From an uncultured Ruminococcus sp. (GTDB lineage: Bacteria > Bacillota > Clostridia > Oscillospirales > Ruminococcaceae), in the NCBI GenBank assembly GCA_902788785.1, contig CADALT010000016.1, positions 1-47,570 of the forward strand: a stretch of 47,570 nucleotides of DNA. Reading direction: 5' to 3'. This document shows positions 4,774 through 21,230 of the stretch, one piece after another. Position numbers and translations under genes: made by a program. The first letter of the stretch is position 1. Every line of letters begins with the position of its first letter. Under the pieces are notes generated by a model. That model saw nothing but the letters and a program-made list of their open reading frames with translations, ran no database searches and was not told the origin of the DNA.

Positions 4774-6159
4774 ATGGAACAGGAAAAACTGGGTGAAGCT
4801 ATATATAAAAAATATATCGAGCCTACAAGCCGCAAACGCAGTACCTCCATAGGTGTGGAAATAGAGCTGCCTGTGGCAGACCTTACGGGCGGAGCTGTAG
4901 ATGAAGCTGTAGTGATTGGAGCAGCTGACAAATTCCGTGAGCACTTCTCTTTCACCGCAGATAGCACCGATGACAACGGAAACGTTAATTCCATGTCAGA
5001 CCCCGAAACAGGCGATAATCTTTCGTTTGACTGCTCATATTCAAATCTGGAGCTGTCACTTGGAAAAAGCGATGACCTGAATGTTATACATGAGAGATTC
5101 AAAGAATACTATAAGTATATCCGGTCACTGCTGGAGCCGCAGGGATACACTCTTACAGGCATGGGCATAAATCCGCACTATGATATAAACCACAATAAGC
5201 CCGTGCCGAATGAGCGTTACCGTATGCTTTATCACTACCTGCACTCATATCACAAGTATGAGGACACCATAAATATGCGTTTTCACGACCGTCCCGATTT
5301 TGGCACGTTCACCAGTGCATCTCAGGTACAGCTTGATGTCAGACAGGATGAACTTATAGATACACTCAACGTTTTCACCATGCTCGAACCCTATAAGGCA
5401 CTGCTGTTTGCAAATTCCTATCTGCCTGAATATCCCGAATATCTCTGTGCGAGGAATATGCTGTGGGAGCGCAGTATGCAGGGATATAACCCGCACAATG
5501 TGGGTATGTTCTCAAAAGTTCCCGAAAGCATAGATGAACTCATCGAATACATAAAATCGCAGTCGGTATACTGCACTATGCGTGATGGTAAATATATTGA
5601 TTTCAAGCCAACTGCGGTGCGTGACTTTTTCTCAATGAAAAAGGTCAAGGGTGAATATTTTGACGGCAGAAGGTATACTGAAACTGTTTTCACGCCCGAA
5701 GAAGCCGATCTTAAATATCTGCGGACTTTCAAATTCGAGGATCTTACTTTCCGCGGCACTATAGAGTACAGAAGTTCATGCACACAGCCCATAAAAGATG
5801 TCATGACTGTAGCTGCGTTCCACACGGGGCTTTCGGGCAGGATAGGTGAACTGGCACAGCTTATAAAAAGCGACCGCACCATTTACGCCCACGGATATAC
5901 CGCCGCAGAATTGCAGGATATGCTTTCAAAGCGAAATATACCCGATTTCATCGAGCGCAGCAGCCTTGTAAAACAGCTTACGGCGATACTCGATATCGCA
6001 TCACAGGGGCTTAAAGACAGGCACAAGAACGAAGAAAAGCTGCTGGGACCTCTCTATGAAAGGGCTCAGGCGCTGACTAATCCTGCAAAAGACATGGTAT
6101 GCGGTCTTGAGAACGGCATATCACTTATGAAATTTATAGAGAAATATTCTGAATTATAA
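4774..6159 (+). CDS. glutamate-cysteine ligase type 2 (GCS2/EgtA) family protein
   Basis: A 461-residue protein of the GCS2 family, the plant/actinobacterial type of glutamate-cysteine ligase. The family start motif is visible at residues 26-40 (IGVEIELPVADLTGG), with metal/ATP-binding Glu29 and Glu31. DCSYSNLELS near residue 90, GMGINPH near 133 and RGTIEYRSSC near 332 match the conserved strands of the fold. Members join the gamma-carboxyl of glutamate to an amine, classically cysteine, using ATP. It is first gene of a six-gene operon, 14 nt before a second, unrelated ligase. No glutathione synthetase is in the window, so the product may be gamma-glutamylcysteine or another gamma-glutamyl compound. 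GGGAGGGTGATG precedes the ATG. Confidence 0.8.
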   Translation: MEQEKLGEAIYKKYIEPTSRKRSTSIGVEIELPVADLTGGAVDEAVVIGAADKFREHFSFTADSTDDNGNVNSMSDPETGDNLSFDCSYSNLELSLGKSDDLNVIHERFKEYYKYIRSLLEPQGYTLTGMGINPHYDINHNKPVPNERYRMLYHYLHSYHKYEDTINMRFHDRPDFGTFTSASQVQLDVRQDELIDTLNVFTMLEPYKALLFANSYLPEYPEYLCARNMLWERSMQGYNPHNVGMFSKVPESIDELIEYIKSQSVYCTMRDGKYIDFKPTAVRDFFSMKKVKGEYFDGRRYTETVFTPEEADLKYLRTFKFEDLTFRGTIEYRSSCTQPIKDVMTVAAFHTGLSGRIGELAQLIKSDRTIYAHGYTAAELQDMLSKRNIPDFIERSSLVKQLTAILDIASQGLKDRHKNEEKLLGPLYERAQALTNPAKDMVCGLENGISLMKFIEKYSEL

Positions 6160-6173
6160 GAAGGGCATCAGAT

Positions 6174-7325
6174 ATGGATAACAAATTATTTTATAAAGGC
6201 TTTTACGGACTCGAACGTGAAACGCTGCGAGTTGACGAAAGCTACAGGCTGGCGCAGACACCTCACCCGTTTTCGGAAGAAAGTATTACCAGAGATTTCT
6301 GCGAGAACCAGACAGAGCTCATTACACCCGTCTGTCACAGCATAGAAGAAACTGTGTGCGAGCTGGAAAAGCTTGATAAAAAAGTAAGAGAAACTCTCGA
6401 TAAGCAAAACGAGAAGATATGGCTGTATTCAAATCCGCCCCATATCGACAGCGAAGATGAGATACCTGTGGCAAATTTCACGGGCAGACATTCGGGCAAA
6501 AGGGCTTACCGTGAACAGCTGGAACAGCGTTACGGCAAAAAGCTCATGCTGTTTTCGGGTGTGCATTTCAATTTCTCCTTCGATGACGAGTATCTTAAAA
6601 CGCTTTTTGGAGGCGAGGACTTTTCACGCCTGCGTGATGAATTCTATCTCAGGCTGTACAAACAGCTTTGCAGATACAGCTGGCTGTTACTGATACTTAC
6701 CGCCGCAAGCCCCCTGTACGACCGCTCGCTTTTTGAAGATGGTGCGGAGGGCGTTGTGCTCAGCGAGTATGCTTCTATCAGAAACAGCGAGAAAGGCTAC
6801 TGGAACAGCTTTGTGCCGATACTCAGGTTTGAAAGTCTTGATGACTTTGTAAAGAGTATAGAAGAATATGTGGAGAACGGTCAGCTGTTCTCCGCAAGCG
6901 AGCTGTATCTTCCCATAAGGCTCAAACCCAAGGGCACCAATCATATAAGCAATTTCAAAAACGGTGTGAGCCATGTCGAGCTCAGGATGTTCGACCTTGA
7001 TCCAACTTCACCGCTGGGCATAGATGAGCGTGACCTGGAATTTGCTCACCTGCTGATAATGTATCTTTCAACTCTGCCCGATCTTGAATATACGCCAAAG
7101 CTGCAGGAACAGGCTATACGTACCCACAAGGAGGCGGCTCGGTTCGACCTTGATAAAGTTTATGCAGATGGTGTGCCTATACTTCAAAAGGCAGAAGAAG
7201 TGATCGATGAAATGTCGGTATTCTTCGGGGATAACAGTCCGGTGCAGGATATACTGGCATACGAAAAAGATAAACTTACAAACAGGCTCTGTGAACGTAT
7301 AGAAAAAAACAGGACCTGCGGATAG
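6174..7325 (+). CDS. glutamate-cysteine ligase type 1 (GshA-like) family protein
   Basis: A 383-residue protein of the E. coli GshA type: YGLERETLRV at residues 11-20, ITRDFCENQTELITPV near 40, then NFTGRHSGKRAYRE and SGVHFNFSF. These correspond to GIERETLRV, TDFAE...ITPV, TGRxKxxYREGL and SGVHYNFS in known gamma-glutamylcysteine synthetases. It is shorter than E. coli GshA (518 residues), being trimmed at the C-terminus. It is unrelated in sequence to the ligase directly upstream; the two lie 14 nt apart. Either one makes gamma-glutamylcysteine and the other a different gamma-glutamyl amide, or they act in sequence. Activity is inferred from motifs only. Confidence 0.8.
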   Translation: MDNKLFYKGFYGLERETLRVDESYRLAQTPHPFSEESITRDFCENQTELITPVCHSIEETVCELEKLDKKVRETLDKQNEKIWLYSNPPHIDSEDEIPVANFTGRHSGKRAYREQLEQRYGKKLMLFSGVHFNFSFDDEYLKTLFGGEDFSRLRDEFYLRLYKQLCRYSWLLLILTAASPLYDRSLFEDGAEGVVLSEYASIRNSEKGYWNSFVPILRFESLDDFVKSIEEYVENGQLFSASELYLPIRLKPKGTNHISNFKNGVSHVELRMFDLDPTSPLGIDERDLEFAHLLIMYLSTLPDLEYTPKLQEQAIRTHKEAARFDLDKVYADGVPILQKAEEVIDEMSVFFGDNSPVQDILAYEKDKLTNRLCERIEKNRTCG

Positions 7326-7336
7326 GAGGAGAGAAA

Positions 7337-8092
7337 ATGTGCGAGCTGTTCGGATTTTCAGCGGCGAAAAAAACTGATATATCTGACTATCTGAAAGAGT
7401 TCTTTGCCCACAGCGACAAAAATCCACACGGGTGGGGAATGATGTTCGGTGAGAACAGGGAGATAGTCAAGGGTGCTGAAAAGGCGGCGGACAGCGAAAA
7501 ACTCCGCACAATGCTGGGCTCCTTTGCACCACAGTACACCACGGTAGCACATATACGTTTTGCCACGGTGGGCTCCATAAAACAGGTGAACTGCCACCCT
7601 TTTGAGGGTACTGATATATCGGGCAGGCTGTGGACGATGGCACACAACGGCACGGTATATTCGGCTAAGAACACCTACAGGTATCTTGATGCCCAGCAGG
7701 GCGATACCGACTCGGAAAGGCTGTTCATGGCTTTTCTCGAAATGATGAATGATAAGCTTGCCAAGGGCGATCTTTCGGAGCGACAGCGGTTCAAAGCGGT
7801 GAATGACTTCATCACCGAGAATGCCCCAAGAAACAAGCTGAACCTGATATTTTACGACGGTGACCTGATGTATGCCCACAAAAATCTTAAAAACACCCTG
7901 AGCTACAAACAGAGCGGAGACGGTGTATTTATCTCAACACACCCCCTTGATAACGGAGAATGGAAACCGTTCCCCATGGCACAGGTCATAGCATTCAGGG
8001 CAGGCAAAGAGGTCTACAGGGGCAAGCCGCACAAGGGCATATTCGTACCGACCCTTGAATATATCACAGCGATGGATGCGATGAATATATGA
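7337..8092 (+). CDS. class II glutamine amidotransferase-fold protein (YafJ/EgtC-like)
   Basis: A 251-residue Ntn-hydrolase whose Met is followed by Cys2 (MCELFGFSA), the expected N-terminal nucleophile. NPHGWGMMF near residue 29, HIRFATVG near 72 and MAHNGTV near 99 are the glutamine/glutamyl-binding motifs. There is no synthetase domain, so it is a stand-alone amidohydrolase like YafJ or EgtC, the enzyme that removes the gamma-glutamyl group in ergothioneine synthesis. Placement behind two gamma-glutamyl ligases fits a role in hydrolysing a gamma-glutamyl intermediate. Ergothioneine itself is unlikely because EgtB and EgtD are absent here. Its stop overlaps the HydE start (ATGA). Confidence 0.85.
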   Translation: MCELFGFSAAKKTDISDYLKEFFAHSDKNPHGWGMMFGENREIVKGAEKAADSEKLRTMLGSFAPQYTTVAHIRFATVGSIKQVNCHPFEGTDISGRLWTMAHNGTVYSAKNTYRYLDAQQGDTDSERLFMAFLEMMNDKLAKGDLSERQRFKAVNDFITENAPRNKLNLIFYDGDLMYAHKNLKNTLSYKQSGDGVFISTHPLDNGEWKPFPMAQVIAFRAGKEVYRGKPHKGIFVPTLEYITAMDAMNI

Positions 8093-9153
8093 TCGAAATT
8101 ACAAATACTGCCGAACAGCTTACAGCTAAACTTGCAGATACACATGACCTTACGGACGAGGAGCTTAAACTGCTCATAGAAAGCGATAACAGTGATGAAC
8201 TGCTTTTCAGCCTTGCGGACAAACAGCGCCGCAAGGTCTACGGAGAAGATGTATACCTGCGTGGGCTGATAGAGTTTACAAACTGCTGCAAAAACGACTG
8301 CTTTTACTGCGGCATAAGGCGCTCGAACCACAACACCGACCGCTACAGGCTGACCGATGAGCAGATACTTGAATGCTGCAAAACAGGTCACAGGCTGGGA
8401 TACCGCACATTCGTACTGCAAGGCGGTGAAGATGCTTATTTTACGGACGAAAAGCTGTGTACACTCATATCACGGATACGCAGCGAGTTTCCCGAATGCA
8501 CCATCACGCTTTCCATCGGTGAGAAAAGCCGTGAAAGCTATGAGCGGTATTTCAAAGCAGGTGCACGGCGCTATCTTCTGCGGCACGAGACTGCCGATGA
8601 TGCGCACTACAGAAAACTTCACCCCGAGACCATGTCGCTCGATAACAGAAAGCGCTGCCTGTATGACCTGAAAGATATAGGCTATCAGGTGGGCACGGGC
8701 TTCATGGTGGGCTCGCCATACCAGACTACCGAAAACATCATCAGCGACCTGCGCTTCATGCAGGCACTCGATCCTGATATGATAGGCATAGGTCCGTTCA
8801 TAAAACACAAGGATACGCCATTCTCGGACTGCGAGAGCGGCACATTGAGCGGTACACTGCGGCTCATAGGAATTATCAGACTGATGTTCCCCCATGCACT
8901 GATACCTGCAACAACTGCGCTGGGCTCTATCTCGCCCACAGGACGTGAGCAGGGTCTGAAAGCAGGGGCTAATGTCATAATGCCGAACCTGTCTCCCACG
9001 GAGGTCAGGGAGCTTTATCTTTTATATGAAAATAAGATCTGCACAGGCGAAAATGCAGAGCTGTGCAAAGGCTGTCTCGAACGGCGCATAAGCGGTGCCG
9101 GATATAGGATATCCTACGCATCGGGGGACGTTATAAGGAAAGGAGCAAGGTAA
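8089..9153 (+). CDS. hydE: [FeFe]-hydrogenase maturation radical SAM protein HydE
   Basis: A 354-residue radical SAM enzyme with the BioB-like HydE layout. Cys67, Cys71 and Cys74 (CKNDCFYC) bind the SAM [4Fe-4S] cluster, and RGLIEFTNCC plus GIRRSN are HydE hallmarks. Cys318, Cys326 and Cys329 keep the C-x7-C-x2-C spacing of the accessory cluster in characterised HydE. HydE helps build the 2Fe subcluster of [FeFe] hydrogenase. Here it stands in a sulfur-metabolism operon without HydF, HydG or a hydrogenase in the window. Start and upstream stop overlap by 4 nt, so it is translationally coupled to the amidotransferase. A recently diverged HydE paralogue acting on a thiol is an alternative. Confidence 0.85.
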   Translation: MIEITNTAEQLTAKLADTHDLTDEELKLLIESDNSDELLFSLADKQRRKVYGEDVYLRGLIEFTNCCKNDCFYCGIRRSNHNTDRYRLTDEQILECCKTGHRLGYRTFVLQGGEDAYFTDEKLCTLISRIRSEFPECTITLSIGEKSRESYERYFKAGARRYLLRHETADDAHYRKLHPETMSLDNRKRCLYDLKDIGYQVGTGFMVGSPYQTTENIISDLRFMQALDPDMIGIGPFIKHKDTPFSDCESGTLSGTLRLIGIIRLMFPHALIPATTALGSISPTGREQGLKAGANVIMPNLSPTEVRELYLLYENKICTGENAELCKGCLERRISGAGYRISYASGDVIRKGAR

Positions 9154-9154
9154 A

Positions 9155-9604
9155 ATGAAGATCTCAACAAGGGTAGAACTGGGTATAGTTGCCCTTGCGG
9201 ACATTGCCATGAATTCGCAGGAAGGAAATACAGTCTCCTCGGCGGAGATAGCTGCAAGACAAGGCATATCACAAAAATATCTGGAGCAGATAATAGTCGG
9301 GCTTCGTCAGGGCGGCTTTGTCAAAGGACAAAAGGGTCTCAGGGGCGGATATTTGCTGTCTCGGCCTGCAAGCAGGATATATCTTTCAGAGATACTAAAT
9401 GCCCTTGACAACACTATACTTGCCGATACCTATGAAGATACCGAAAACAGCGGCAATGATATACGCTCATCGGTGAACAGCTGTCTGTGGGATAAGTTCA
9501 ACGGCTATATGCGGCGTTTCACCGAACAGATGACCCTTGCAGACCTCATAAAGGAATGCAAAGAAAATTCCGATCAGAAAGCGAACTATATGTACTATAT
9601 ATAA
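9155..9604 (+). CDS. Rrf2-family regulator, CymR-like
   Basis: A 149-residue Rrf2 protein: winged helix in residues 1-80 with MKISTRVELGIVALADIA, GISQKYLEQIIVGLRQGG and KGLRGGYLLSRP. It lacks the three-cysteine cluster motif of IscR/NsrR; its only cysteines are in SSVNSCLWDKF and KEC. The C-terminal half (SCLWDKF...MTLADLI) resembles CymR, the cysteine-metabolism repressor that works with cysteine synthase. Starting 1 nt after hydE and followed by metAA, it probably senses sulfur status and controls this operon and perhaps the minus-strand transsulfuration/nitrogenase-like operon. Ligand and operator are inferred, not shown. Confidence 0.85.
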   Translation: MKISTRVELGIVALADIAMNSQEGNTVSSAEIAARQGISQKYLEQIIVGLRQGGFVKGQKGLRGGYLLSRPASRIYLSEILNALDNTILADTYEDTENSGNDIRSSVNSCLWDKFNGYMRRFTEQMTLADLIKECKENSDQKANYMYYI

Positions 9605-9626
9605 AATATAAAAGGAGGAAAGTAAT

Positions 9627-10529
9627 ATGCCCATCAGGCTGAAAGAAACACTGCCCGTCATCGAAAAACTCAAAAAGGAAAACATCTTTGCGATGACCGA
9701 AGACCGTGCGATACACCAGGATATAAGAGAGCTGAAGATAGCTGTGCTAAACCTGATGCCCGATAAGGAGAACACTGAGCAGCAGCTGCTAAGGCTGCTG
9801 TCGAACTCGCCTTTGCAGATAGATGTGACATTCATAAGGCTGGTTTCACACAAGTACAAGAACACCCCTGCTGCATATCTTCTGAAAAACTATCAGCCCT
9901 TTTATCAGATCGAGAACAAGTATTTCGACGGTCTGATAATCACAGGTGCGCCTGTGGAAAAGCTGGGATTTGAAGATGTGGATTACTGGGGCGAACTTAC
10001 CTCGATACTTGAATGGTCAAGGCTGCACGTTACCTCGACGCTGCACCTGTGCTGGGCTGCACAGGCGGGGCTGTACTATCATTACGGGGTGCGCAAGTAT
10101 GACTATGAAAAAAAGCTTTCAGGCATATACGAACACACCGTCACCGACCCGACCAATGAACTGGTGCGTGGCTTCGATAAGAATTTCTATGCGCCCCATT
10201 CACGCTATACAGGCATATTCCGTGAGGATATCGAAAAGGCAGATGGGCTCACCATAATAGCCGAGTCCGAAAAGACGGGACCCTATATAATATCCGACGG
10301 CGGCAGCAATATATTCGTAAACGGTCATCCCGAATACGACCTCTACCGTCTGGCAGAGGAATACATACGTGATACCGATGCAGGGCTTTCACCCGAGATA
10401 CCTGTGAACTATTTCCCCGATGACGATCCCGACAAGGAACCCGTCAGCCGCTGGATATCCGCTTCAAGCCTACTGTTCTCGAACTGGCTGAACTACTTCG
10501 TGTATCAGATAACGCCATATCAGTTCTGA
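9627..10529 (+). CDS. metAA: homoserine O-acetyltransferase (MetA family)
   Basis: A 300-residue MetA-type acyltransferase activating homoserine for methionine synthesis. Cys142 (LHLCWAAQAG) is the acyl-enzyme nucleophile and His234 with Glu236 (NGHPEYD) complete the active site. Residue 111 is Glu (ITGAPVE), the residue known to select acetyl-CoA over succinyl-CoA in this family, so the product should be O-acetylhomoserine despite homology to homoserine succinyltransferase. AAAGGAGGAAAG precedes the ATG. It is the last gene of the operon, ended by the terminator at 10543-10563. O-acetylhomoserine could feed the PLP enzymes of the minus-strand operon. Confidence 0.93.
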   Translation: MPIRLKETLPVIEKLKKENIFAMTEDRAIHQDIRELKIAVLNLMPDKENTEQQLLRLLSNSPLQIDVTFIRLVSHKYKNTPAAYLLKNYQPFYQIENKYFDGLIITGAPVEKLGFEDVDYWGELTSILEWSRLHVTSTLHLCWAAQAGLYYHYGVRKYDYEKKLSGIYEHTVTDPTNELVRGFDKNFYAPHSRYTGIFREDIEKADGLTIIAESEKTGPYIISDGGSNIFVNGHPEYDLYRLAEEYIRDTDAGLSPEIPVNYFPDDDPDKEPVSRWISASSLLFSNWLNYFVYQITPYQF

Positions 10530-12229: not shown

Positions 12230-12562
12230 TCAGACTATCCTGTCCGCTATGAACTTTTTCAGCACCCCGTCGATACTGCCGCTGACCTCAAACACACGCA
12301 CTCCCCTTTCGATGAGGTATGCGGCTGCACCCTCGCCGATCTTCTGCACAAGCACCGCATCGCAGTCCGAGAGCAGCTCTATTATCTTATCAAAGCGAGT
12401 GGTGTCATGTCCCAATGTCTGCTGACAGGCTGCCACTGCATCACGCACCTCGATGAAGTCATATCCGTCATTTGAGATGTCGTATACACGGAAGAATTTG
12501 GCATGACCGAAATGCTCGTTGACAGCAAAACCGTCGGATGTGGCTATAGCTAATCTTGACAT
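12230..12562 (-). CDS. NifX/NifB-C-terminal-like cofactor-binding protein (second copy)
   Basis: A 110-residue protein of the dinitrogenase iron-molybdenum cofactor biosynthesis family (NifX, NafY, C-terminus of NifB). The family start is clear: LAIATSDGFAVNEHFGHAKFF at residues 4-24, and the Rossmann-like core ends with VLVQKIGEGAAAYLIERGVRV. Such domains hold or pass on Fe-S cofactor precursors; His17 in NEHFG is the usual ligand candidate. It is the last gene of the operon and is separated from the component-1 beta gene by a terminator-like hairpin, so it is probably made in lower amount. It probably serves cofactor insertion for the adjacent nitrogenase-like protein. Confidence 0.85.
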   Translation of the reverse strand: MSRLAIATSDGFAVNEHFGHAKFFRVYDISNDGYDFIEVRDAVAACQQTLGHDTTRFDKIIELLSDCDAVLVQKIGEGAAAYLIERGVRVFEVSGSIDGVLKKFIADRIV

Positions 12563-12581
12563 ATTATCATTCCTTTCAAAA

Positions 12582-12606
12582 AGAGCTGCCGTATACCGAC
12601 AGCTCT
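12582..12606 (-). terminator. intra-operon terminator or attenuator before the last nifX-like gene
   Basis: On the minus strand AGAGCTGTCG and CGGCAGCTCT form a 10-bp stem (one G-U pair) with a 5-nt loop, directly followed by TTTTTG and then the AAAGGA site of the next gene. It should reduce read-through from the structural genes into the final gene, or protect the 3' end of the upstream message. Confidence 0.7.
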
Positions 12607-12637
12607 GTACAAGGCACTACAGTTGATGTTGCCTTTA

Positions 12638-13978
12638 TTATTTATATGTTGCAAGTGAGGTATTGTAGATGTCTTCAATGACCCTGAGTCCGCCTGTATA
12701 GCCCACATAGTTGGTGGTCAGTACGATGCGGTAGGGAGTGGGGCAGGCGATGGATAGGAAGTCTGCATCTATCTCCGCAGCAAGCTCCTTGTCCCAGCCG
12801 CTGCCGAGGATAAGTCCTCTGCCCTTGTGTTCAAGCCCTCTGATAACGTCCTGCATAGCACCTGCATCGGGGTCGAAATAAACAGGTATCTCACGCTTGT
12901 CTGATGCCGCTTTTATCTGTGCGGCGATCTCTTCCTGATACTTCTTGGGAACATTGTCCACGATGAACTGTTCCTTGGGTATAACACCTGTTTCGTGCAG
13001 AAGGAACTTGGTCAGACCTACCACATAGCCTGAATCATGAAGGATATGCGCATAGCTTGGCAGACCGTAACGGAACTCCAGCAAGAATGTCGCCAGATTA
13101 TCCAGCTCCTCATAGTATGCTTTTTCTTCCTCTTCGATAAATCTGCGTGCTTTCTTTTCATCTATCTCAGCGCCCTGTTCGAGAGCAAATTCCAACACGC
13201 CGTTCAAGAACTTTGTAGTTTCGTTTGCACCTATGGGCAGGTAGCCGAATTTGAAATAAGGCTGACCGTATCTTCTTTCGAGGTTCTTAACTATAGGCTC
13301 GCCGTACCAGGGAGAAACGAACACATTGAAGTTCGCCTTTGGAATGGTCTGCCACTCCTTCACGCCGCCCGAATGGGGTCCGAAAAGTATGTTGACTTTA
13401 AGTCCCAGACCTTCCAGCAGACGCTTGTATTCTTTAAGATTACCCTTCCAGAACTGATCCTGATAGGGTATTGATGCGATCACATTAACGAGGTTCTTCT
13501 CGCTGCGTGAGGGATTATCTTCCTCAAAGCGGCTCACATACTGGTCGATTATCGCATTTACCACAGCCGAATGTGATACATAGTTATTTGACTTGAAGCC
13601 CGAGGTCTCAACATGGACGATGGGTCTGTCTTCCTCAAAGAGAAATTCATCTGTGACGCTTGCCACATCATCACCCACGATACCTGCGGTACAGCCTGTC
13701 ACAACGACTTGCAGATCGGTATCGAGCACCTTGTAGGTGTTCTTGATTATGTTCCTTAGTCTGTCAGTTCCGCCGAATACAACTTCCTTTTCGCTGAAAT
13801 TTGTACATGGTGCGGTCTCGCCGCCTGCGTAGCCTGCCGAACGCTCAAAAAATCCCTTTATCATAACTCCGCAGCCGGGACCTGAGTGAAGTATAGGCAC
13901 CGCACGGGGTATAGCGACTACAGTCTGCAATGCGCCTATGGCACAGGTGTAGCGCTCCTGTTCAATTAGTCCTGCCAT
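12638..13978 (-). CDS. nitrogenase component 1-like protein, beta (NifK/MarK-like)
   Basis: A 446-residue protein of the nitrogenase component-1/oxidoreductase family. Cys12 (YTCAIGA), Cys36 (HSGPGCG) and Cys96 (VTGCTAGIVGDD) match the three P-cluster cysteines of NifK in spacing and context. It is shorter than NifK and lacks its N-terminal extension. It follows the alpha-like gene after 14 nt, so the two form a heterotetramer that takes electrons from the NifH-like protein. With nifB, nifH and alpha upstream the order is B-H-D-K as in methylthio-alkane reductase operons. Assignment to nitrogenase-like group is firm; the substrate is inferred from the sulfur context. Confidence 0.88.
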   Translation of the reverse strand: MAGLIEQERYTCAIGALQTVVAIPRAVPILHSGPGCGVMIKGFFERSAGYAGGETAPCTNFSEKEVVFGGTDRLRNIIKNTYKVLDTDLQVVVTGCTAGIVGDDVASVTDEFLFEEDRPIVHVETSGFKSNNYVSHSAVVNAIIDQYVSRFEEDNPSRSEKNLVNVIASIPYQDQFWKGNLKEYKRLLEGLGLKVNILFGPHSGGVKEWQTIPKANFNVFVSPWYGEPIVKNLERRYGQPYFKFGYLPIGANETTKFLNGVLEFALEQGAEIDEKKARRFIEEEEKAYYEELDNLATFLLEFRYGLPSYAHILHDSGYVVGLTKFLLHETGVIPKEQFIVDNVPKKYQEEIAAQIKAASDKREIPVYFDPDAGAMQDVIRGLEHKGRGLILGSGWDKELAAEIDADFLSIACPTPYRIVLTTNYVGYTGGLRVIEDIYNTSLATYK

Positions 13979-13992
13979 ATATTATTTCTCCT

Positions 13993-15462
13993 TTACTTTC
14001 CCAAGAATGTGTAGGGCTCCTGTTCAAGCCACCATTTTGTATAGGGGTTGACAGAATGCTTTGCAAGGTTCTTTACGAACTCGTCGTTCTCGATGGTCTC
14101 AAGAATACGCTCACCGTAAGCCACAAGACCCTCATAACCCATGCCGAAATGCTCATCACCCACCAGCAGCGAGGGTATGCCGAGCTTTGCGCCCCAGAGC
14201 GTCATGCCGCCGTGACGTGCAAGCAGTATATCGGGACGTATGCGGTTGAGTACGTTAACAAGCTCGAATTCCTGCTTGTTGCAGACATTGTAGTTTGGTA
14301 CATCGCCGTAATCCTGTACAGTGTGTTTGAGGGTATCTGCACGCTCATCCTCATTATCATATTCGGGATCGTGGTGGAATATAGCAGCGCCCTGCGTCTC
14401 CATGCCCAGCTCTTTAAGAAGTGCCAGCAGCGAATGTCCGTGAGATGCGCCTGCGGTGACGTAAGCGGTCTTACCCTTGAGCTTTTCACGCAGAGCCTCT
14501 ATCTTAGGCATATACTCGGCTTTCTTGCGGGCTAAGAATTCCTCGACCTCTTTCTCCTTGCCGAGTATCTGACCCAGTTCCCTGAACCAGCGGTCGGTCT
14601 GGGCGATACCGTAAGGAGGTGAATTGCGTATCTCGGGCACGCCGAAGGACTGCTCCAGTGCGGCACCCAGATATGAGCCCAGTGTGGAGCAAGCCTGGAT
14701 AGTCAGTGCTGCCTCGCTGGAGTAGCTCAGGCTGTCCACTGTAGCAAAGGGGGTTATATAATTTGGTTCGTAGCCGAATTCAGCGAACCATTCTCTGAAA
14801 ATATCGCTGCCCCAGAAGTTTATAACATTTATAATGTTGCTCTTTTGTCTTGCAGGCTTGATTATCTTTCTGGCGATGCCGTGATAGCCTGCATCAAAGC
14901 CCGATGTCCACATCTTTGAACGGAAGCCCTCGCAGAATACTGCGACCACGGGTATGCCCAGTTCTTTCTGTGCTGCGTTGGTGACACTCTCCACATCATC
15001 ACCGATGATACCTGCCGCACAGGTGGTTATGACGAATATCGCCTTGGGCTTGGCACGCTTGTATACTTCCTGTATGGCAGATTCAAGCTTCTTTGCGCCG
15101 CCGTATATGGTATCCTTCTCTTCAAGATTGGTCGAAAATATCTTGCGCTGAGTGGGGTGCTCGAGCTGTCTTAAATAAGCATTCACACGGTATGTGAAAG
15201 CAAATTCGTGCAGGCAGGTAGAGCAGCCCACCGGCCCGTGGGAGATTATCGCCGCATCCTGTATCAGGGTCAGGGTGCAGGCAGCGTTCGATGTTCCGCA
15301 GCCCAGGCACTGGCTGAATGAACGGCTCTTGTCCTTTATCTTGCCAGAGCACGCAGAACAGGCATCCACAAGTTCCTTGGCTGTTCCCTGAAATCCCGTT
15401 ATCGAACCCAGACGTATCTCTCGTATCTCGACCTCGGGTATATCAAGATTAACTTTGCTCAT
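13993..15462 (-). CDS. nitrogenase component 1-like protein, alpha (NifD/MarD-like)
   Basis: A 489-residue NifD-like subunit. P-cluster-type cysteines are Cys55, Cys80 (HGPVGC) and Cys148 (TTCAAGIIGDD). Cys258 (IQACST) and His438 (GDEHFGMGYEG) stand where NifD Cys275 and His442 hold the FeMo cofactor, so a NifB-derived cofactor can plausibly be bound. The FeMoco-side motifs otherwise differ from true nitrogenase. Unusual extra cysteines Cys35, Cys38, Cys52 and Cys62 lie near the N-terminus. Absence of NifE/N genes here suggests the cofactor matures on this protein itself, as proposed for minimal nitrogenase-like systems. It starts 12 nt after nifH. Predicted role: catalytic subunit of a reductive C-S cleaving or related enzyme. 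Confidence 0.88.
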   Translation of the reverse strand: MSKVNLDIPEVEIREIRLGSITGFQGTAKELVDACSACSGKIKDKSRSFSQCLGCGTSNAACTLTLIQDAAIISHGPVGCSTCLHEFAFTYRVNAYLRQLEHPTQRKIFSTNLEEKDTIYGGAKKLESAIQEVYKRAKPKAIFVITTCAAGIIGDDVESVTNAAQKELGIPVVAVFCEGFRSKMWTSGFDAGYHGIARKIIKPARQKSNIINVINFWGSDIFREWFAEFGYEPNYITPFATVDSLSYSSEAALTIQACSTLGSYLGAALEQSFGVPEIRNSPPYGIAQTDRWFRELGQILGKEKEVEEFLARKKAEYMPKIEALREKLKGKTAYVTAGASHGHSLLALLKELGMETQGAAIFHHDPEYDNEDERADTLKHTVQDYGDVPNYNVCNKQEFELVNVLNRIRPDILLARHGGMTLWGAKLGIPSLLVGDEHFGMGYEGLVAYGERILETIENDEFVKNLAKHSVNPYTKWWLEQEPYTFLGK

Positions 15463-15474
15463 TACTATCTCTCC

Positions 15475-16338
<864 letters not shown>

Positions 16339-16364
16339 TTACCTCATTTCAATTTTCATATATC

Positions 16365-16416
16365 AAATACCATATATAGTATTTCTTCTGCATATCATAT
16401 ATTTCATATGGTATTT
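16365..16416 (-). other. stem-loop in the nifB-nifH gap
   Basis: AAATACCATAT (16365-16375) pairs perfectly with ATATGGTATTT (16406-16416) around a 30-nt AT-rich loop, in the 83-nt gap between nifB and nifH. It reaches the nifB stop codon. No T-tract follows, so RNA processing or 5'-end stabilisation of the nifH message is more likely than termination. Confidence 0.5.
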
Positions 16417-17297
16417 CAGCCATGTGAGAATGTATCTTTTCTTGATAATCTTTTAAGGTTCGTATATATCCTGCTGCCATAGTCCTCGCCGCCGGGGATA
16501 CCCACAGCGTCCGCACGGCACCGCTGGCAATGTCTGAATACATCAATATACTTCGATGCTTTCAGCACTGCCCTCTCAAACTCCATGCAGTCGGGTTCAC
16601 GACAGTCTTTGAGCTTATGATTCGGTATCAGCGGGATAATATTGTATATATCCGCACCAGCCTCCGCCACGGTCTTAGCTACCTCTTCGATATGCTCCGA
16701 GTTTATATCGGGCACATACACTGTGTTGACCTTAACGGTAATGCCTGCCTCGCTTATAAGGCGTATGCCTTTCAGCTGCTGCTCGATAAGTATCTCTGCC
16801 GCCTCGACCCCTGTATAGTGCTTTCCATGCCATATGATGCCGTCATTTAGCTGCGCCTCTATCTCGGGATCGACCGCATTAACTGTCACCGTCAGCGAAT
16901 CAACGCCCACATCTATGACCTCCTGCGCCTTTTCAGCAAGCAGCAGTCCGTTGGTGCTCATGCACTTTACCAACTGCGGATACTTCTGCTTTATCAGCCT
17001 GAAAGTTTCCAGCGCATAAGGGCTTGCCAGAGTATCTCCGGGGCCTGCGATGCCTGCTACGTGTATATCGGGACATAGCTCCAAAGCCTTGTCTATGGCT
17101 TCGAGTGCTTCCTGCGGAGTTATTACCGTCGAGGTCACTCCGGGACGCTTTTCATATGTATTGAAGCTGCGCTCGCAGAAACGGCATTCGATATTGCAGC
17201 TGGGGCTTATGGGCAGATGCATCCTGCCGTTGCCGCTGTTTGGACCTTTAGCAAAGCACGGGTGCTTTGTAGTCAGTTCTTCGTATGAGATCGCCAT
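16416..17297 (-). CDS. nifB: NifB-type radical SAM cofactor synthase, short form
   Basis: GGGAGG lies 7 nt before the ATG at 17297, giving 293 residues; the frame continues to 17336 without a site. KHPCF at 11-15, GRMHLPISPSCNIECRFC at 24-41 with radical-SAM cysteines 34, 38 and 41, AGPGDTLA near 82, and the C-terminal CQRCRADAVG are NifB hallmarks. NifB fuses two [4Fe-4S] clusters with a SAM-derived carbide to make NifB-co. The NifX-like domain found at the end of many bacterial NifB proteins is missing here and is supplied by two separate nifX-like genes. Its presence implies the reductase uses a carbide-containing cofactor. Confidence 0.92.
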   Translation of the reverse strand: MAISYEELTTKHPCFAKGPNSGNGRMHLPISPSCNIECRFCERSFNTYEKRPGVTSTVITPQEALEAIDKALELCPDIHVAGIAGPGDTLASPYALETFRLIKQKYPQLVKCMSTNGLLLAEKAQEVIDVGVDSLTVTVNAVDPEIEAQLNDGIIWHGKHYTGVEAAEILIEQQLKGIRLISEAGITVKVNTVYVPDINSEHIEEVAKTVAEAGADIYNIIPLIPNHKLKDCREPDCMEFERAVLKASKYIDVFRHCQRCRADAVGIPGGEDYGSRIYTNLKRLSRKDTFSHG

Positions 17298-17644
17298 CTG
17301 TCCACCTCCCATTGTTTTTCTTCCATCAGCAGACAAAGTGCCTGCTCTATCGTCAAGGGGATCTGATATACCTTTATCCCCTGTTCTTCCATATATTTTA
17401 CAGCTCCGGGACCTGCCCGCTGAACTACCACTGCGCTGATACCGCCAAGTATCTCTGCGGTATCCCCAAAGGCTGATACCTCGTGTTCTCCGCCGTGGCA
17501 GGAGGGTGTCACATCAACATATCCGCCGATATCATAATCATCAAGCTCGGTATCTATCAAAGCCTTGTAGAACCGTTTTGCTCTGCCAAAATGTTCGTTG
17601 ACGTTCTCTCCGTCGCTGCTTGCAAAAGCTATTTCATATATCAT
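17273..17644 (-). CDS. NifX/NifB-C-terminal-like cofactor-binding protein (first copy)
   Basis: Start chosen at 17644, where GGAG stands 5 nt before ATG and the gene begins 10 nt after the cysK-like gene; this gives 123 residues. The NifX-family opening IAFASSDGENVNEHFGRAKRF is plain, and GGISAVVVQRAGPGAVKYMEEQGIKVY is the second conserved strand-helix pair. An additional His/Cys patch (CHGGEHE) near residue 48 might contribute metal ligands. It overlaps the nifB start by 25 nt, so it is coupled to NifB and probably receives its product. It differs clearly from the second nifX-like protein of the operon. Confidence 0.85.
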   Translation of the reverse strand: MIYEIAFASSDGENVNEHFGRAKRFYKALIDTELDDYDIGGYVDVTPSCHGGEHEVSAFGDTAEILGGISAVVVQRAGPGAVKYMEEQGIKVYQIPLTIEQALCLLMEEKQWEVDRWRSHTKN

Positions 17645-17654
17645 TTTTTCTCCA

Positions 17655-18563
17655 TCAGCCGAATAATCCCGTGCTGAAATATCTGTCACCTCTGTCGGGG
17701 AATACCACGACTATCACGCCCTTATCCAGTGTCTTTGCCAGTTTCAGAGCTGCCGCCATGGCTGCTCCCGAAGATGAACCTGCGATTATGCCCTCATTGC
17801 GTGCAAGCTGTCCCACTGCACCGAAAGCCTCTTCATCGTTCATCTTTATGACCTCGTCCACCAGTTTTATATCCATGGTGTCGGGAATGAAATCGTTGCC
17901 GATACCCTCAATGTTGTAGTCGAAGTGTTCGCCGCCTCCAATGGTCGAGCCTTCGGGGTCTGCCAGCACGCCCTTGATATTTGGGTCATGCTCTTTCAGG
18001 TATCGGACGATCCCCGTGTACGTTCCGCCGCTGCCTGCACCTGCCACAAGGTGTGTCACCCTGGTGCCGATGTCATCCCATATCTCTTTGCCCGTGGTCT
18101 CATAATGGGCAAGGGGATTATTCGGGTTTTTGAACTGCTCTAGTGATATGGAGTCGGGTATCTGCGCTTTCAGCTCTTCCGCCTTTCGCACAGCCCCGAG
18201 CATTCCCTCGGAACGTGGTGTATTTATTACCTCCGCACCCAGCGCCCTCATGAGCGCCTGTTTTTCTGCGGAGAATTTTGTGGGCACTGTGAATATTACT
18301 CTGTAGCCTTTACCAAGTGCTGCGAATGCTATACCCAGTCCCGTATTGCCTGCGGTAGCCTCGATTATGGTGCTGCCTGCTTTAAGTCTTCCCTCTTTTT
18401 CGGCAGCCGCTATCATATACTCGCCGATGCGGTCCTTCACGCTGCCCGAGGGATTGTACATTTCCAGTTTCGCATATATCTCTACTTCGGGGGAGACCCC
18501 CATATTGTTCAGCCTGACCAGCGGCGTGCGCCCGATCAGCTTGTGCATATTCTCATACAGCAT
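17655..18563 (-). CDS. mccA: cysteine synthase-family PLP enzyme, MccA-like (O-acetylserine-dependent cystathionine beta-synthase)
   Basis: A 302-residue fold-type II PLP enzyme: Lys43 in NPSGSVKDR binds PLP, TAGNTGLG binds substrate, and GSGGTYTG and SSSGAA bind the phosphate. FSAEKQALMRALGAEV and GSTIGGGEH...IEGIGNDFIP resemble B. subtilis MccA, which makes cystathionine from O-acetylserine and homocysteine, more than plain CysK; ordinary cysteine synthase activity cannot be excluded. It starts 1 nt after an MccB/MetB-like gene, the same pairing as in reverse transsulfuration operons, and is followed by nifX. O-acetylserine could come from the CysE encoded at 40458-41399. Symbol is a judgement between mccA and cysK. 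Confidence 0.82.
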   Translation of the reverse strand: MLYENMHKLIGRTPLVRLNNMGVSPEVEIYAKLEMYNPSGSVKDRIGEYMIAAAEKEGRLKAGSTIIEATAGNTGLGIAFAALGKGYRVIFTVPTKFSAEKQALMRALGAEVINTPRSEGMLGAVRKAEELKAQIPDSISLEQFKNPNNPLAHYETTGKEIWDDIGTRVTHLVAGAGSGGTYTGIVRYLKEHDPNIKGVLADPEGSTIGGGEHFDYNIEGIGNDFIPDTMDIKLVDEVIKMNDEEAFGAVGQLARNEGIIAGSSSGAAMAAALKLAKTLDKGVIVVVFPDRGDRYFSTGLFG

Positions 18564-18564
18564 A

Positions 18565-19722
18565 TCACTTTACCTCGCTTGATGCTATCGCCTTGTCAAG
18601 GTCAGCCAGAATATCGTCTATATCCTCGATACCGATTGACAGCCTTATCAGACCGTCGGTAATGCCGACTTTCTTCCTTATCTCTTCCGGTATGGACGCG
18701 TGGGTCATGCTCGAAGGATGGCACACCAGTGATTCCACACCGCCCAGGCTCTCCGCAAGGGTGATAAGCTCAAGGCTCTCAAAGAACACCTTTATATCGT
18801 AGTTGTCTTTCAGTTCAAAGGATATCATCACGCCGCCGTTCTTCGCCTGACGCTTATTGACTTCATAGCCCTTGTCACTTTCAAGTCCCGGGTAGTGCAC
18901 GCTCTTAACAGCCTCATGTTCCAGCAGATGCTTTGCAGCTTTCTCGGCGTTTGAAACGTGCCTGTCGAGCCTTACACCCAGGGTCTTTATACCTCTTATC
19001 AGCAGGAAGCTGTCAAAGGGTGCCAGCACACCGCCTGTGGAATTCTGCAAAAATGCCAGCTTTTCGGCAAGCTCCTTTGTCTTGACCACCGCAAGACCTG
19101 CCACCACATCGCTGTGACCGCCAAGATACTTCGTAGCAGAATGTACCACGATGTCAGCGCCAAGTTCAAGAGGTCTTTGCAGGTAGGGTGTCATGAAAGT
19201 ATTGTCAACTATCACCAGAAGACCATGCTTATGGGCTATCTCTGCAACCGCACGTATATCTGTCACCGTCATCAGCGGATTAGCGGGGCTTTCTATCAGA
19301 ACCGCCTTGACATCATCTGTTATATCCTTTTCAAATGAAGCAGGGTCCTCTGTATCAGATATAGTATAGTTTATGCCGAAGTGGTCGAACACCTGATTTA
19401 ACAGCCTGAATGTTCCGCCGTAAACATTTGAGGAAATGAGCACTCTGTCTCCCGTATTCAGAAGGCTGAGCACTGCTGTTTCCGCCGCAAGACCGCTGGC
19501 AAAAGCAAAACCTGCTTCGCCGCCTTCAAGCTCGGCGATAAGTGCTTCAAGGGCTTCTCTTGTGGGGTTGCCTGTTCTTGAATACTCATAGCCCCTCATC
19601 TTTCCAAGACCATCCTGTTTAAATGTAGATGTCTGGTATATGGGTACATTCACCGCACCTGTGCGCTCATCTGTTGATATGCCGCCGTGGATAAGTGCGG
19701 TGTCGATCTTCTTGTAACTCAT
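18565..19722 (-). CDS. trans-sulfuration PLP enzyme (cystathionine gamma-lyase/synthase family, MccB/MetB-like)
   Basis: The frame opens to 19770, but that codon lies in the promoter; AAAGGA stands 9 nt before the ATG at 19722, giving 385 residues. Typical Cys/Met-metabolism PLP signature: YEYSRTGNPT near 45, SSNVYGGT near 97, DNTFMTPYLQRPLELGADIVVHSATKYLGGHSD with PLP-binding Lys198. The family includes cystathionine gamma-synthase (O-acetylhomoserine plus cysteine), gamma-lyase and O-acetylhomoserine sulfhydrylase; they cannot be told apart by eye. Pairing with the MccA-like gene favours gamma-lyase, while metAA nearby would suit use of O-acetylhomoserine. It is first gene of the eight-gene operon. 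Confidence 0.85.
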   Translation of the reverse strand: MSYKKIDTALIHGGISTDERTGAVNVPIYQTSTFKQDGLGKMRGYEYSRTGNPTREALEALIAELEGGEAGFAFASGLAAETAVLSLLNTGDRVLISSNVYGGTFRLLNQVFDHFGINYTISDTEDPASFEKDITDDVKAVLIESPANPLMTVTDIRAVAEIAHKHGLLVIVDNTFMTPYLQRPLELGADIVVHSATKYLGGHSDVVAGLAVVKTKELAEKLAFLQNSTGGVLAPFDSFLLIRGIKTLGVRLDRHVSNAEKAAKHLLEHEAVKSVHYPGLESDKGYEVNKRQAKNGGVMISFELKDNYDIKVFFESLELITLAESLGGVESLVCHPSSMTHASIPEEIRKKVGITDGLIRLSIGIEDIDDILADLDKAIASSEVK

Positions 19723-19768
19723 TTCACTCATTCCTTTCATATTTTTCCTATTTGTTTGGTATGTATTC

Positions 19769-19797
19769 ATGATACATCAAAAACGCCTTATAGTCAA
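19769..19797 (-). promoter_or_regulatory. promoter of the transsulfuration/nitrogenase-like operon
   Basis: On the minus strand TTGACT (19792-19797) and TATCAT (19769-19774) are 17 bp apart. This places the 5' end near 19762, about 40 nt before the mccB-like start. No other convincing promoter is seen inside the operon. Confidence 0.75.
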
Positions 19798-19808
19798 TCG
19801 CAATATGT

Positions 19809-20020
19809 GATAACGTTATCTCATCTCCCCCCGACATCAGTGATTTTTCCGCCTCAAAAGTCCCAATATAAGTTTATCTCGGTAAATATTTTTGAACATC
19901 TTTTTAAATCTCCCGTTTGATTGATAACGTTGTCACGCCAAAAACACATATTTACGCCTTTTATGTCGGAAAATCATATCAATTTCTCCGATATCCGACC
20001 TCGTGTGCGGCAACGTTATC
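19809..20020. promoter_or_regulatory. three LacI/CcpA-type operator-like palindromes
   Basis: GATAACGTTATC at 19809-19820 is a perfect palindrome 11 bp upstream of the -35 box. GATAACGTTGTC at 19923-19934, within TGATAACGTTGTCA, fits the catabolite-response consensus TGWNANCGNTNWCA. A third, GGCAACGTTATC, is at 20009-20020. Centres are 114 and 86 bp apart. The rest of this roughly 360-nt gap (19723-20079) holds no gene. LacI-family proteins bind such CG-centred sites; the adjacent LacI gene or a CcpA-like protein are candidates. Confidence 0.65.
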
Positions 20021-20079: not shown

Positions 20080-21153
20080 TCATATATAATATTCAGGCTC
20101 TGTCAGTTCTTTCAGAGGTCGGCAGCTTTCACGTATGACCAGTGTACCTTCTACTTCAAGCCTTGAAACTATCCTGTGACCTCCCCTTATCCTGTCAAGC
20201 AGCAGCATAAGCGCAAAGCGCACCATATCATTTTTCGGCAGCGAGATAGTAGTCAGCATGGGTCTTGTATACTGCGCAGCGTCTATATCATCGCTGGATA
20301 TGACTGAGGGCATATAGCCCCGTCCCCTGCGCCTGTTTATGGCTTTCAGCATACCCACCGCAAGTATATCGTTGGCACAGTATATCCCCGTGGGCGGATC
20401 ATCAAGTCCGCTGAAATATTCCATAGCCGCAATGCCGTTAGCCTCGTTGGGCAGGGTATCAAAAATATAATCTATATCCACCGCAAGGCGCTCATTTGTC
20501 AGCGCAGCCTGGTACCCCGAAAACCTCGATTCGTTATGGCAGTCGCCCACATAGCCTATCTTCGTATGACCGAGTTTTGCCAGATAAGCTATGGCTGTCT
20601 GCGCTATCCTGCTGCCGTCGCATAGAACCTCGTCCGCCTCGTAATTGGTGGAATTTCGGTTTATCGAAACTATATTCTTCTCCTTATTCTTCAGCATTTT
20701 CAGTGCTCTGCCCGTGACTTTGCCGATAACGATAAGCCCGTCCGAGTGGCGCTCATTATCGGGATAAAGGGAATCGACCAACTTTTGCAGCTTGTCAGTC
20801 CTGCTGAGTTTCTCATCGGAGAACTCCGCATTGTGCCAGACATTCCCCACGATGCACCCACTGTTTCGCAGTTCCTTCTCCAGTATCATCAGCAGTTCAT
20901 CATAGAAAGGGTCTGCTGCCTCGTGCGCAAATCTCGTAAGCAGTATATTGACATGGTATATCTTTTCTTCACCCGATGCACCCGTTTTTAACGAACGTGC
21001 GCTGGCATTGGGTATATAATTTATCTCCCGTGCTGCCTCCAGCACACGACGCTTGACCTCATCATTTGCACATTTGCGGTTCGGGTCGTTGAGTATACGC
21101 CCTACTGTCGAAACAGATACACCTGTCATCTGCGCTATCTTTTTAAGTGACAT
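20080..21153 (-). CDS. LacI/GalR-family transcriptional regulator
   Basis: GGGAGG lies 9 nt before the ATG at 21153, giving 357 residues. The N-terminal helix-turn-helix and hinge are textbook LacI: SLKKIAQMTGVSVSTVGRILNDP, then NYIPNASARSLKTG. A periplasmic-binding-protein-like effector domain follows (DGLIVIGKVTG, LGHTKIGYVGD, PTGIYCANDILAVG, ISSDDID, LTTISLPK). The effector is usually a sugar. No matching palindrome is seen in its own promoter, but three LacI-type sites lie just beyond its terminator, upstream of the mccB-mccA-nif-like operon. Control of that operon is a hypothesis based on adjacency. It has its own consensus promoter. Confidence 0.88.
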   Translation of the reverse strand: MSLKKIAQMTGVSVSTVGRILNDPNRKCANDEVKRRVLEAAREINYIPNASARSLKTGASGEEKIYHVNILLTRFAHEAADPFYDELLMILEKELRNSGCIVGNVWHNAEFSDEKLSRTDKLQKLVDSLYPDNERHSDGLIVIGKVTGRALKMLKNKEKNIVSINRNSTNYEADEVLCDGSRIAQTAIAYLAKLGHTKIGYVGDCHNESRFSGYQAALTNERLAVDIDYIFDTLPNEANGIAAMEYFSGLDDPPTGIYCANDILAVGMLKAINRRRGRGYMPSVISSDDIDAAQYTRPMLTTISLPKNDMVRFALMLLLDRIRGGHRIVSRLEVEGTLVIRESCRPLKELTEPEYYI

Positions 21154-21201
21154 ATGCCTCGCCTCCCTAGTATACCATAGTAAACATATCTTGTTAGTAT
21201 G

Positions 21202-21230
21202 ATTATAGCGCAGACTTCTCATTTTGTCAA
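21202..21230 (-). promoter_or_regulatory. sigma-A promoter of the LacI-family gene
   Basis: Minus-strand TTGACA (21225-21230) and TATAAT (21202-21207) with 17 bp spacing. Confidence 0.8.

Follow-up and report, generated by a model that had tools for sequence, protein, structure and literature searches.

A nitrogenase-like Group IV-A operon joined to cysteine and methionine genes in a Ruminococcus albus-group genome: a probable carbon-sulfur reductase of sulfur assimilation

The stretch of DNA analysed here, referred to below as the window, is a contig of 47,570 nucleotides (C16) from an uncultured Ruminococcus genome of 2.95 Mb that is 90.6% complete. It carries a nitrogenase-like set of genes (NifB, NifH and the catalytic subunits D and K; BHDK) in a single tight minus-strand operon with genes of sulfur amino-acid metabolism. 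The D protein is 97% identical to that of Ruminococcus albus 8, and the host is therefore a bacterium of the R. albus group. The initial annotation had described a nitrogenase-like operon "fused" to transsulfuration genes; all eight genes were confirmed with the strand, order and range it gave, the word standing for one operon and not for a gene fusion. In the direction of transcription the genes are as follows.

18565..19770, minus strand: CGL/CGS family pyridoxal phosphate (PLP) enzyme, MccB-like; NF005810 is the best model, yet its 552 bits lie below the cut-off of 594
17655..18563, minus strand: cysteine synthase/cystathionine beta-synthase (CBS) family protein, CysK/MccA-like; TIGR01136 at 351 bits, above the cut-off of 344
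17273..17644, minus strand: NifX-like protein, resembling the NifB C-terminal/NifX domain
16416..17297, minus strand: NifB-like radical S-adenosylmethionine (SAM) protein without NifX domain; TIGR01290 at 269 bits (cut-off 344), motifs CNIECRFC and HCQRC
15475..16332, minus strand: NifH-like reductase component; TIGR01287 at 460 bits, above the cut-off of 394, with Cys99 and Cys134
13993..15462, minus strand: catalytic subunit D of the Group IV-A (Nfa) clade; PF00148, MarD as best PDB match, trees and site residues
12638..13978, minus strand: catalytic subunit K; MarK as best PDB match, three P-cluster cysteines
12230..12562, minus strand: second NifX-like protein; TIGR02663 at 59 bits, below the cut-off of 112

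Some gene starts have alternatives. A later ATG is possible for the MccB-like gene at 19722, the NifB frame is open from 17336 with a likelier ATG at 17297, and the upstream NifX-like frame is open from 17689 with a likelier ATG at 17644. The best PDB matches of the MccB-like protein are cystathionine gamma-synthase/lyase chains; those of the CysK/MccA-like protein include CBS as well as CysK chains, and solely the CysKM subfamily model exceeds its cut-off. NifB, D, K and both NifX-like proteins are family matches that all fall under the cut-offs of the nif equivalog models. A search of species genomes with the D alignment confirmed at least 577 related stretches, so the operon is not a chance observation; the best 80 of these were kept as loci, and among them many of the closest relatives of the window are metagenome-assembled genomes from the rumen.

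The BHDK core had been taken for that of a mar operon, which encodes the methylthio-alkane reductase (MAR) of Rhodospirillum rubrum, Group IV-C. In PDB searches MarD and MarK are indeed the first matches of window D and K (445 bits with the next at 141, and 386 bits with the next at 69, respectively), but the trees place the window elsewhere. In a quick tree of 69 D proteins and a careful one of 39, whose rows from the kept relatives span Bacillota, Spirochaetota, Synergistota, Elusimicrobiota and Actinomycetota, window D forms a clade with proteins of Heliophilum, Paenibacillus, Clostridium beijerinckii, Acetobacterium, Treponema and Endomicrobium (support 99 in the quick tree, 99/98 in the careful one). 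The Mar clade is its sister (100 and 100/100; union of both clades 95 and 93/88) and contains R. rubrum MarD, a second Heliophilum copy (81% identical to MarD), a second R. albus 8 copy (56%) and copies of Paenibacillus sinensis, genome G033 and UBA7013. The K tree agrees, with 99 and 100 for the two clades and only 80 for their sister relation, long branches being flagged among its outer rows. Window D is 64% identical to the Heliophilum protein, up to 73% to those of Endomicrobium and 41% to MAR D.

The name of the clade follows from Heliophilum. According to PMC9147875, this bacterium has five NflDK pairs. NflDK1, which adjoins the sole nifH and shares its locus with nifB and nifX, groups with Endomicrobium proavitum NfaDK (IV-A), and NflDK5 groups with MarDK (IV-C). 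The Heliophilum locus in our set, L095, adjoins H and B genes as that paper describes for NflDK1 and is taken as such; since window D clades with it, the window enzyme is a Group IV-A (Nfa) protein and the operon is a member of this sister clade, not a mar operon. The two kinds coexist: R. albus 8, Heliophilum, P. sinensis, G033 and UBA7013 each encode a window-type and a Mar-type D protein, and the second D of C. beijerinckii is 75% identical to MarD. In UBA7013 (L054) and contig L102 both kinds of DK adjoin each other together with CysK and CGL. A search of the window's own genome for PF00148 proteins found no Mar-type DK. E. proavitum itself was not found when five genomes from the genus of the Endomicrobium locus L069 were searched; two of the five (2.0 and 2.3 Mb) had D matches, both in the window clade, and another had no PF00148 protein.

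Two observations concern the relatives themselves. In R. albus 8 the neighbours of the Mar-type DK (L177, 56% to MarD) include SsuA/SsuC-like genes (25-26% identity) and a gene for a LysR regulator. In Endomicrobium, both L175 (G302:C43) and L069 have a tandem pair of D genes with an SsuA-like gene in between, the two proteins of G302 being 72% and 66% identical to window D.

The cofactor site was compared across 51 D proteins of the clade, dereplicated at 88% and at least 57% identical to window D, with residues numbered after the MAR structure paper (PMC12552129). All 51 keep MAR Cys66, Cys91, Cys158, Cys73, Trp195, Phe199, Cys270, His375, Arg428 and His429, the cofactor-site residues Cys270, Arg428 and His429 being C258, R416 and H417 in the window. 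In the same 51 proteins, Endomicrobium and Heliophilum included, NifD Val70, Gln191 and His195 are replaced by Cys, Trp and Phe (Cys62, Trp185 and Phe189 in window D). Window D and K together have all six P-cluster cysteines of MAR, and K Cys32, Cys56 and Cys121 are kept in 87/87 proteins (window included, near-duplicates left in). The Arg-His pair also occurs in 8/8 D proteins of an outer group and is therefore no hallmark of MAR alone. The predicted structure of window D (25-row alignment, predicted local distance difference test 84.5) has a template modelling (TM) score of 0.91 to MAR (9fmg_A), followed by nitrogenase alpha chains at about 0.64-0.72. Two pocket positions set the clade apart from MAR: none of the 51 proteins has His194, which is replaced by Ile (26 proteins), Val (21) or Met (4), and Gln74 is kept in 14; the window has M184 and T63. 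Because of the loss of His194, the substrate probably differs from that of MAR.

Sulfur genes surround the operon throughout the clade. After removal of 18 near-duplicates, 62 loci remained, of which 34 were well flanked (each flank 4 kb or longer). MetY, CGL or CysK lies within 9.5 kb in 42/62 loci (30/34 well flanked), an SsuABC- or MetNIQ-like transporter gene in 40/62 (28/34), and a sulfur enzyme or organosulfur-type transporter gene of either kind in 51/62 and in every one of the 34 well-flanked loci; these counts are lower bounds, as the simple gene caller missed some genes, and some transporter labels rest on 22-30% identity. In all 11 loci without either label, at least one flank is shorter than 4 kb. 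As a control, genome G008 was sampled in 18 stretches of 18 kb at even spacing, and none carried such labels, five having an ABC ATPase and one a LysR match. Both Endomicrobium loci have SsuABC-like genes, and L069 adds a MetY-like gene (448 aa; TIGR01326 at 489 against a cut-off of 495). When the plus-strand share of the unlabelled neighbour genes (89/157) was examined with Pfam for nitrogen genes, no family occurred in more than 4/89, and the 25 of 116 Pfam families inspected included one glutamine synthetase. As for the pair of PLP enzymes whose conservation beside BHDK had been put up for survey, CGL and CysK occur together in at least 16/62 loci (at least 14/34 well flanked). In L061 (1400-3256), a single open frame joins a Cys/Met-metabolism PLP domain to a GNAT acetyltransferase domain.

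The region upstream of the operon, and the nearest methionine gene beyond its far end, contain the following features.

19809..19820, strand not assigned: palindromic operator-like site GATAACGTTATC, from sequence pattern
19923..19934, strand not assigned: second operator-like site, from sequence pattern
20009..20020, strand not assigned: third, degenerate operator-like site with one mismatch
20080..21222, minus strand: LacI-family regulator just upstream of the operon; RbsR/PurR-type matches below cut-off, adjoining the operon in R. albus relatives
9627..10529, plus strand: homoserine O-acetyltransferase MetA; NF047918 at 438 bits, below the cut-off of 460.5

A terminator-like hairpin, read from the sequence, follows the LacI-family gene, and MetA lies 1.7 kb past the far end of the operon on the opposite strand. 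Among R. albus-group loci with the LacI gene, 16/17 have the site RAYAACGTTRTC before the CGL gene, L052 being the one without. The same site precedes a MetY-like gene in 7 R. albus-group loci and, by orientation, probably also in L111; this gene on the LacI side is 33-37% identical to window CGL, and three examples were confirmed as MetY-like. L041, L046, L112 and L052 have the MetY-like gene on the LacI side without the exact site. The window's own genome has three RAYAACGTTRTC sites, two at the operon and one within a gene that, from its own sequence, is presumably for an aspartate-semialdehyde dehydrogenase-like protein.

In two other relatives the putative control sequence is an RNA. T-box leaders lie upstream of D in C. 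beijerinckii (L115; strain HUN142) and in Clostridium sp. LS (L117), two close Clostridium relatives, and their specifier reads UGC, for cysteine. The specifier position was calibrated on one case, the T-box of L073, where the same position reads UGG and tryptophan synthase genes follow. A scan of the loci of 14 relatives at Rfam gathering scores gave two T-boxes (the Cys-type of L115 and the Trp-type of L073); that of L117 was found by motif scan.

A different leader RNA-like element, with the core UGACUGG..CCAGAG and a terminator-like stem, was seen before D, MarD, H, NifX, NifB, MetY, CysK or MetN-like genes. It lies at L115:8892-8950, L117:8897-8955, L104:8894-8960, L101:1376-1446 and L174:2292-2350, and also in the stretches of L064, L099, L105, L106, L109, L072, L116 and L102. 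It had no match in 324 kb of control sequence or in the window and no gathering match to Rfam in 15 loci (L117 in part), with one sub-threshold microRNA match. A gene of the kinds named lies within 500 nt of 10/13 matches outside the seed (E<0.035; two L107 copies excluded).

The rest of the genome bears on both nitrogen and sulfur. In line with the initial annotation, NifE, NifN and NifV were not found: within this 90.6% complete genome the best NifE match (TIGR01283) reaches 182 bits against a cut-off of 505 and the best NifV match 141.5 against 462.9. There are seven PF00148 matches, namely window D and K, four proteins on contig C2 and one sub-threshold match on C20, and none of the first six, which were scanned, passes the nifD, nifK, nifE or nifN cut-off, the C2 proteins falling well short of it. 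For sulfur, the genome encodes two O-acetylhomoserine sulfhydrylases (MetY) above cut-off, no NIR_SIR sulfite reductase and no mtnA; mtnA is absent from R. albus 8 as well, and a self-made supply of methylthioethanol through the methylthioadenosine (MTA) route is thus unlikely.

We consider it likely, with fair though not high confidence, that the window encodes a Group IV-A (Nfa) nitrogenase-like reductase that serves sulfur assimilation by carbon-sulfur (C-S) cleavage and feeds methionine and cysteine synthesis. Four lines of evidence point this way: MAR-type ligands (51/51 D, 87/87 K) with a D model close to MAR; sulfur or transporter genes in 34/34 well-flanked loci against 0/18 controls; UGC T-boxes before D in L115 and L117 together with the LacI-type operator before CGL and MetY-like genes; and an own genome with no sulfite reductase, two MetY and no NifEN or NifV. 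From the gene content, clade, ligand residues, synteny and regulatory-site sequences observed, we infer the clusters, reaction, capture steps and regulation. NifB would build an [Fe8S9C] cluster, which D may hold via Cys258 and His417 (MAR Cys270/His429) without molybdenum or homocitrate. Electrons would be delivered by NifH, with ATP, through a P-cluster common to D and K, and the active site would reductively split a C-S bond of an organosulfur compound to yield a thiol or sulfide. The thiol could then be captured on O-acetylhomoserine or O-acetylserine (by MetY encoded elsewhere in the genome, or the CysK-like enzyme here), the nearby MetA would supply O-acetylhomoserine, and the CysK/MccA-like and CGL/MccB-like enzymes would shift the sulfur into cysteine. 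Of the earlier proposal of C-S cleavage with capture by PLP enzymes, the tie to sulfur amino acids is supported by synteny, T-boxes and operator, whereas a methylthio-alkane substrate cannot be assumed, because Nfa and genuine Mar are found together in several genomes, those of R. albus 8 and Heliophilum among them.

Several points weigh against this reading. We know of no activity for any Group IV-A member. Across the genome, the operator does not stand out clearly from chance (3 sites against 2-3 for the reversed control), and it does not occur in the examined flanks of the two MetY genes of the own genome; the window itself has no T-box or SAM riboswitch at Rfam gathering scores, where only a tRNA was found. 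The own locus is without the organosulfur-type transporters of its relatives and without an adjoining MetY, and NIR_SIR, lacking in 4/7 other Nfa genomes, is present in 3/7. Finally, diazotrophy has been reported for E. proavitum with IV-A as its sole nif-like genes (Zheng et al. 2016, as cited in PMC9147875).

Among the other explanations, a plain methylthio-alkane reductase, which would turn 2-(methylthio)ethanol or dimethyl sulfide into methanethiol and a hydrocarbon, is unlikely but fares best. MAR is the nearest solved structure and shares the cofactor ligands and the BHDK gene set; the separation of the clade from MarD and MarK, the presence of both kinds in one genome, the lost His194 and the missing mtnA in the own genome and R. 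albus 8 speak against it. Marginally less likely is a Group IV-A nitrogenase for which NifB, unaided, makes an all-iron cluster that fixes N2; the sulfur genes would then serve its large Fe-S demand or be incidental. It retains this weight because E. proavitum is reported, by citation in PMC9147875, to incorporate 15N2, and because the L-cluster shows N2 reactivity of its own when on NifEN/NifB (PMC13245594); in addition, Heliophilum NflDK1 of the same clade was predicted to be its nitrogenase in the former paper. Against it stand the Cys, Trp and Phe that replace NifD V70, Q191 and H195 in the whole clade, the lack of NifEN/NifV, the tRNA-Cys-type T-box of two relatives and the clade-wide sulfur synteny, and MAR, with the same ligands, formed no 15NH4 above background (PMC12552129). 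A classical nitrogenase was rejected, as NifEN/NifV and the N2-essential NifD residues are missing; in its P-cluster residues and those of the [Fe8S9C]-type site the enzyme resembles MAR, and the view that N2 fixation is unlikely here is supported.

A sulfite-releasing sulfonate reductase of the IsrBHDK kind is improbable: SsuABC-like transporters adjoin many relatives, but IsrD keeps a single P-cluster Cys and IsrB does not resemble NifB (PMC11423573), whereas window D has three such cysteines and the operon a NifB-family protein. With no NIR_SIR in the own genome, sulfite freed from a sulfonate would be useless here, and on residues, NifB type and this absence the candidate was set aside. 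Least credible is a role without any substrate, as a cofactor-assembly scaffold or in electron transfer. NifEN-like ancestry and the NifX-like genes in the operon would suit it, but apart from the distant hyd/hyp-linked paralogs the own genome offers no second catalytic DK as its client, and the ligands are of MAR type.

Seen as an assimilatory C-S reductase, the window system can be set beside several described ones. NfaBHDK of Heliophilum fasciatum (NflDK1) and Endomicrobium has D and K of the same clade, the same ligands and adjoining sulfur genes or SsuABC-like transporters; it was published as a nitrogenase or putative nitrogenase, whereas the window's is read here as a sulfur enzyme, and the R. 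albus form differs in starting with CGL-CysK behind LacI-type operators. R. rubrum MarBHDK (IV-C) shares the BHDK set, the six P-cluster cysteines, Cys270/His429/Arg428, Trp195, Phe199 and His375, but belongs to the sister clade, has a D only 41% identical, differs at the replaced His194 and Gln74 and coexists with Nfa in several genomes. Rhodobacter capsulatus IsrBHDK is alike in its BHDK-type gene set and in the reductive C-S cleavage proposed for assimilation (PMC11423573), and differs in an IsrD without two P-cluster cysteines, a BciD-like IsrB and sulfite as product. Non-selenium type I mlp clusters combine IV-A HDK genes with MetY, CysK and methionine genes, for which PMC10418091 proposes a methyl-sulfur role; by contrast, no mlp-type gene occurs among the window genes scanned (main open reading frames up to 31.9 kb). 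The mccAB genes of the Bacillus type are the reverse transsulfuration pair. Like them, the window has a CysK-type and a CGL-type gene, but its putative pair shares one operon with BHDK.

The initial annotation had regarded a Firmicutes version of this system, coupled to MccAB-type enzymes, as a new variant. That nitrogenase-like genes of Firmicutes occur with those for O-acetylhomoserine sulfhydrylase or cysteine synthase, in C. beijerinckii and others, was noted in 2012 (PMC3464626), and Group IV-A genes with MetY and CysK were described in the 2023 mlp preprint (PMC10418091); the sulfur-gene association is thus already published in part and the window operon is not new in kind. The word T-box occurs once in version 3 of PMC10418091 and not in version 4. 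By title or abstract start, we found no paper on this operon in Ruminococcus in the open-access literature.

A wider claim is more tentative, and we hold it at somewhat under even chances: all Group IV-A enzymes, the Endomicrobium and Heliophilum "nitrogenases" included, may be C-S reductases of a class apart, under the control of cysteine starvation and with their own substrates, N2 fixation being misassigned or a side activity of [Fe8S9C]. PMC11257099 describes the Group IV-A proteins as a functional nitrogenase for Endomicrobium. If the clade does cleave C-S bonds, the Endomicrobium and Heliophilum assignments would need revision, as would nifH- or nifD-based diazotroph counts that take in such genes, and organosulfur use would gain another type of nitrogenase-cluster enzyme. 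Two carriers, R. albus 8 and C. beijerinckii, are in culture, which makes the question of Group IV-A open to direct test.

Two further gene groups of this genome deserve mention. Adjoining the operon, a plus-strand run (4774-10529) comprises two glutamate-cysteine-ligase-like genes, an EgtC-like amidotransferase (below cut-off), HydE (over cut-off), an Rrf2 regulator whose nearest models are CymR and IscR (below both cut-offs), and MetA. On contig C2 (78.9-90 kb, L118), two further NifH and DK-like sets lie in a HydE/HypF/HypD hydrogenase-maturation cluster, so that, with the HydE of the window, the genome has a second HydE; Dos Santos et al. (PMC3464626) mention nitrogenase-like genes among hydrogenase maturation genes in Coprococcus catus.

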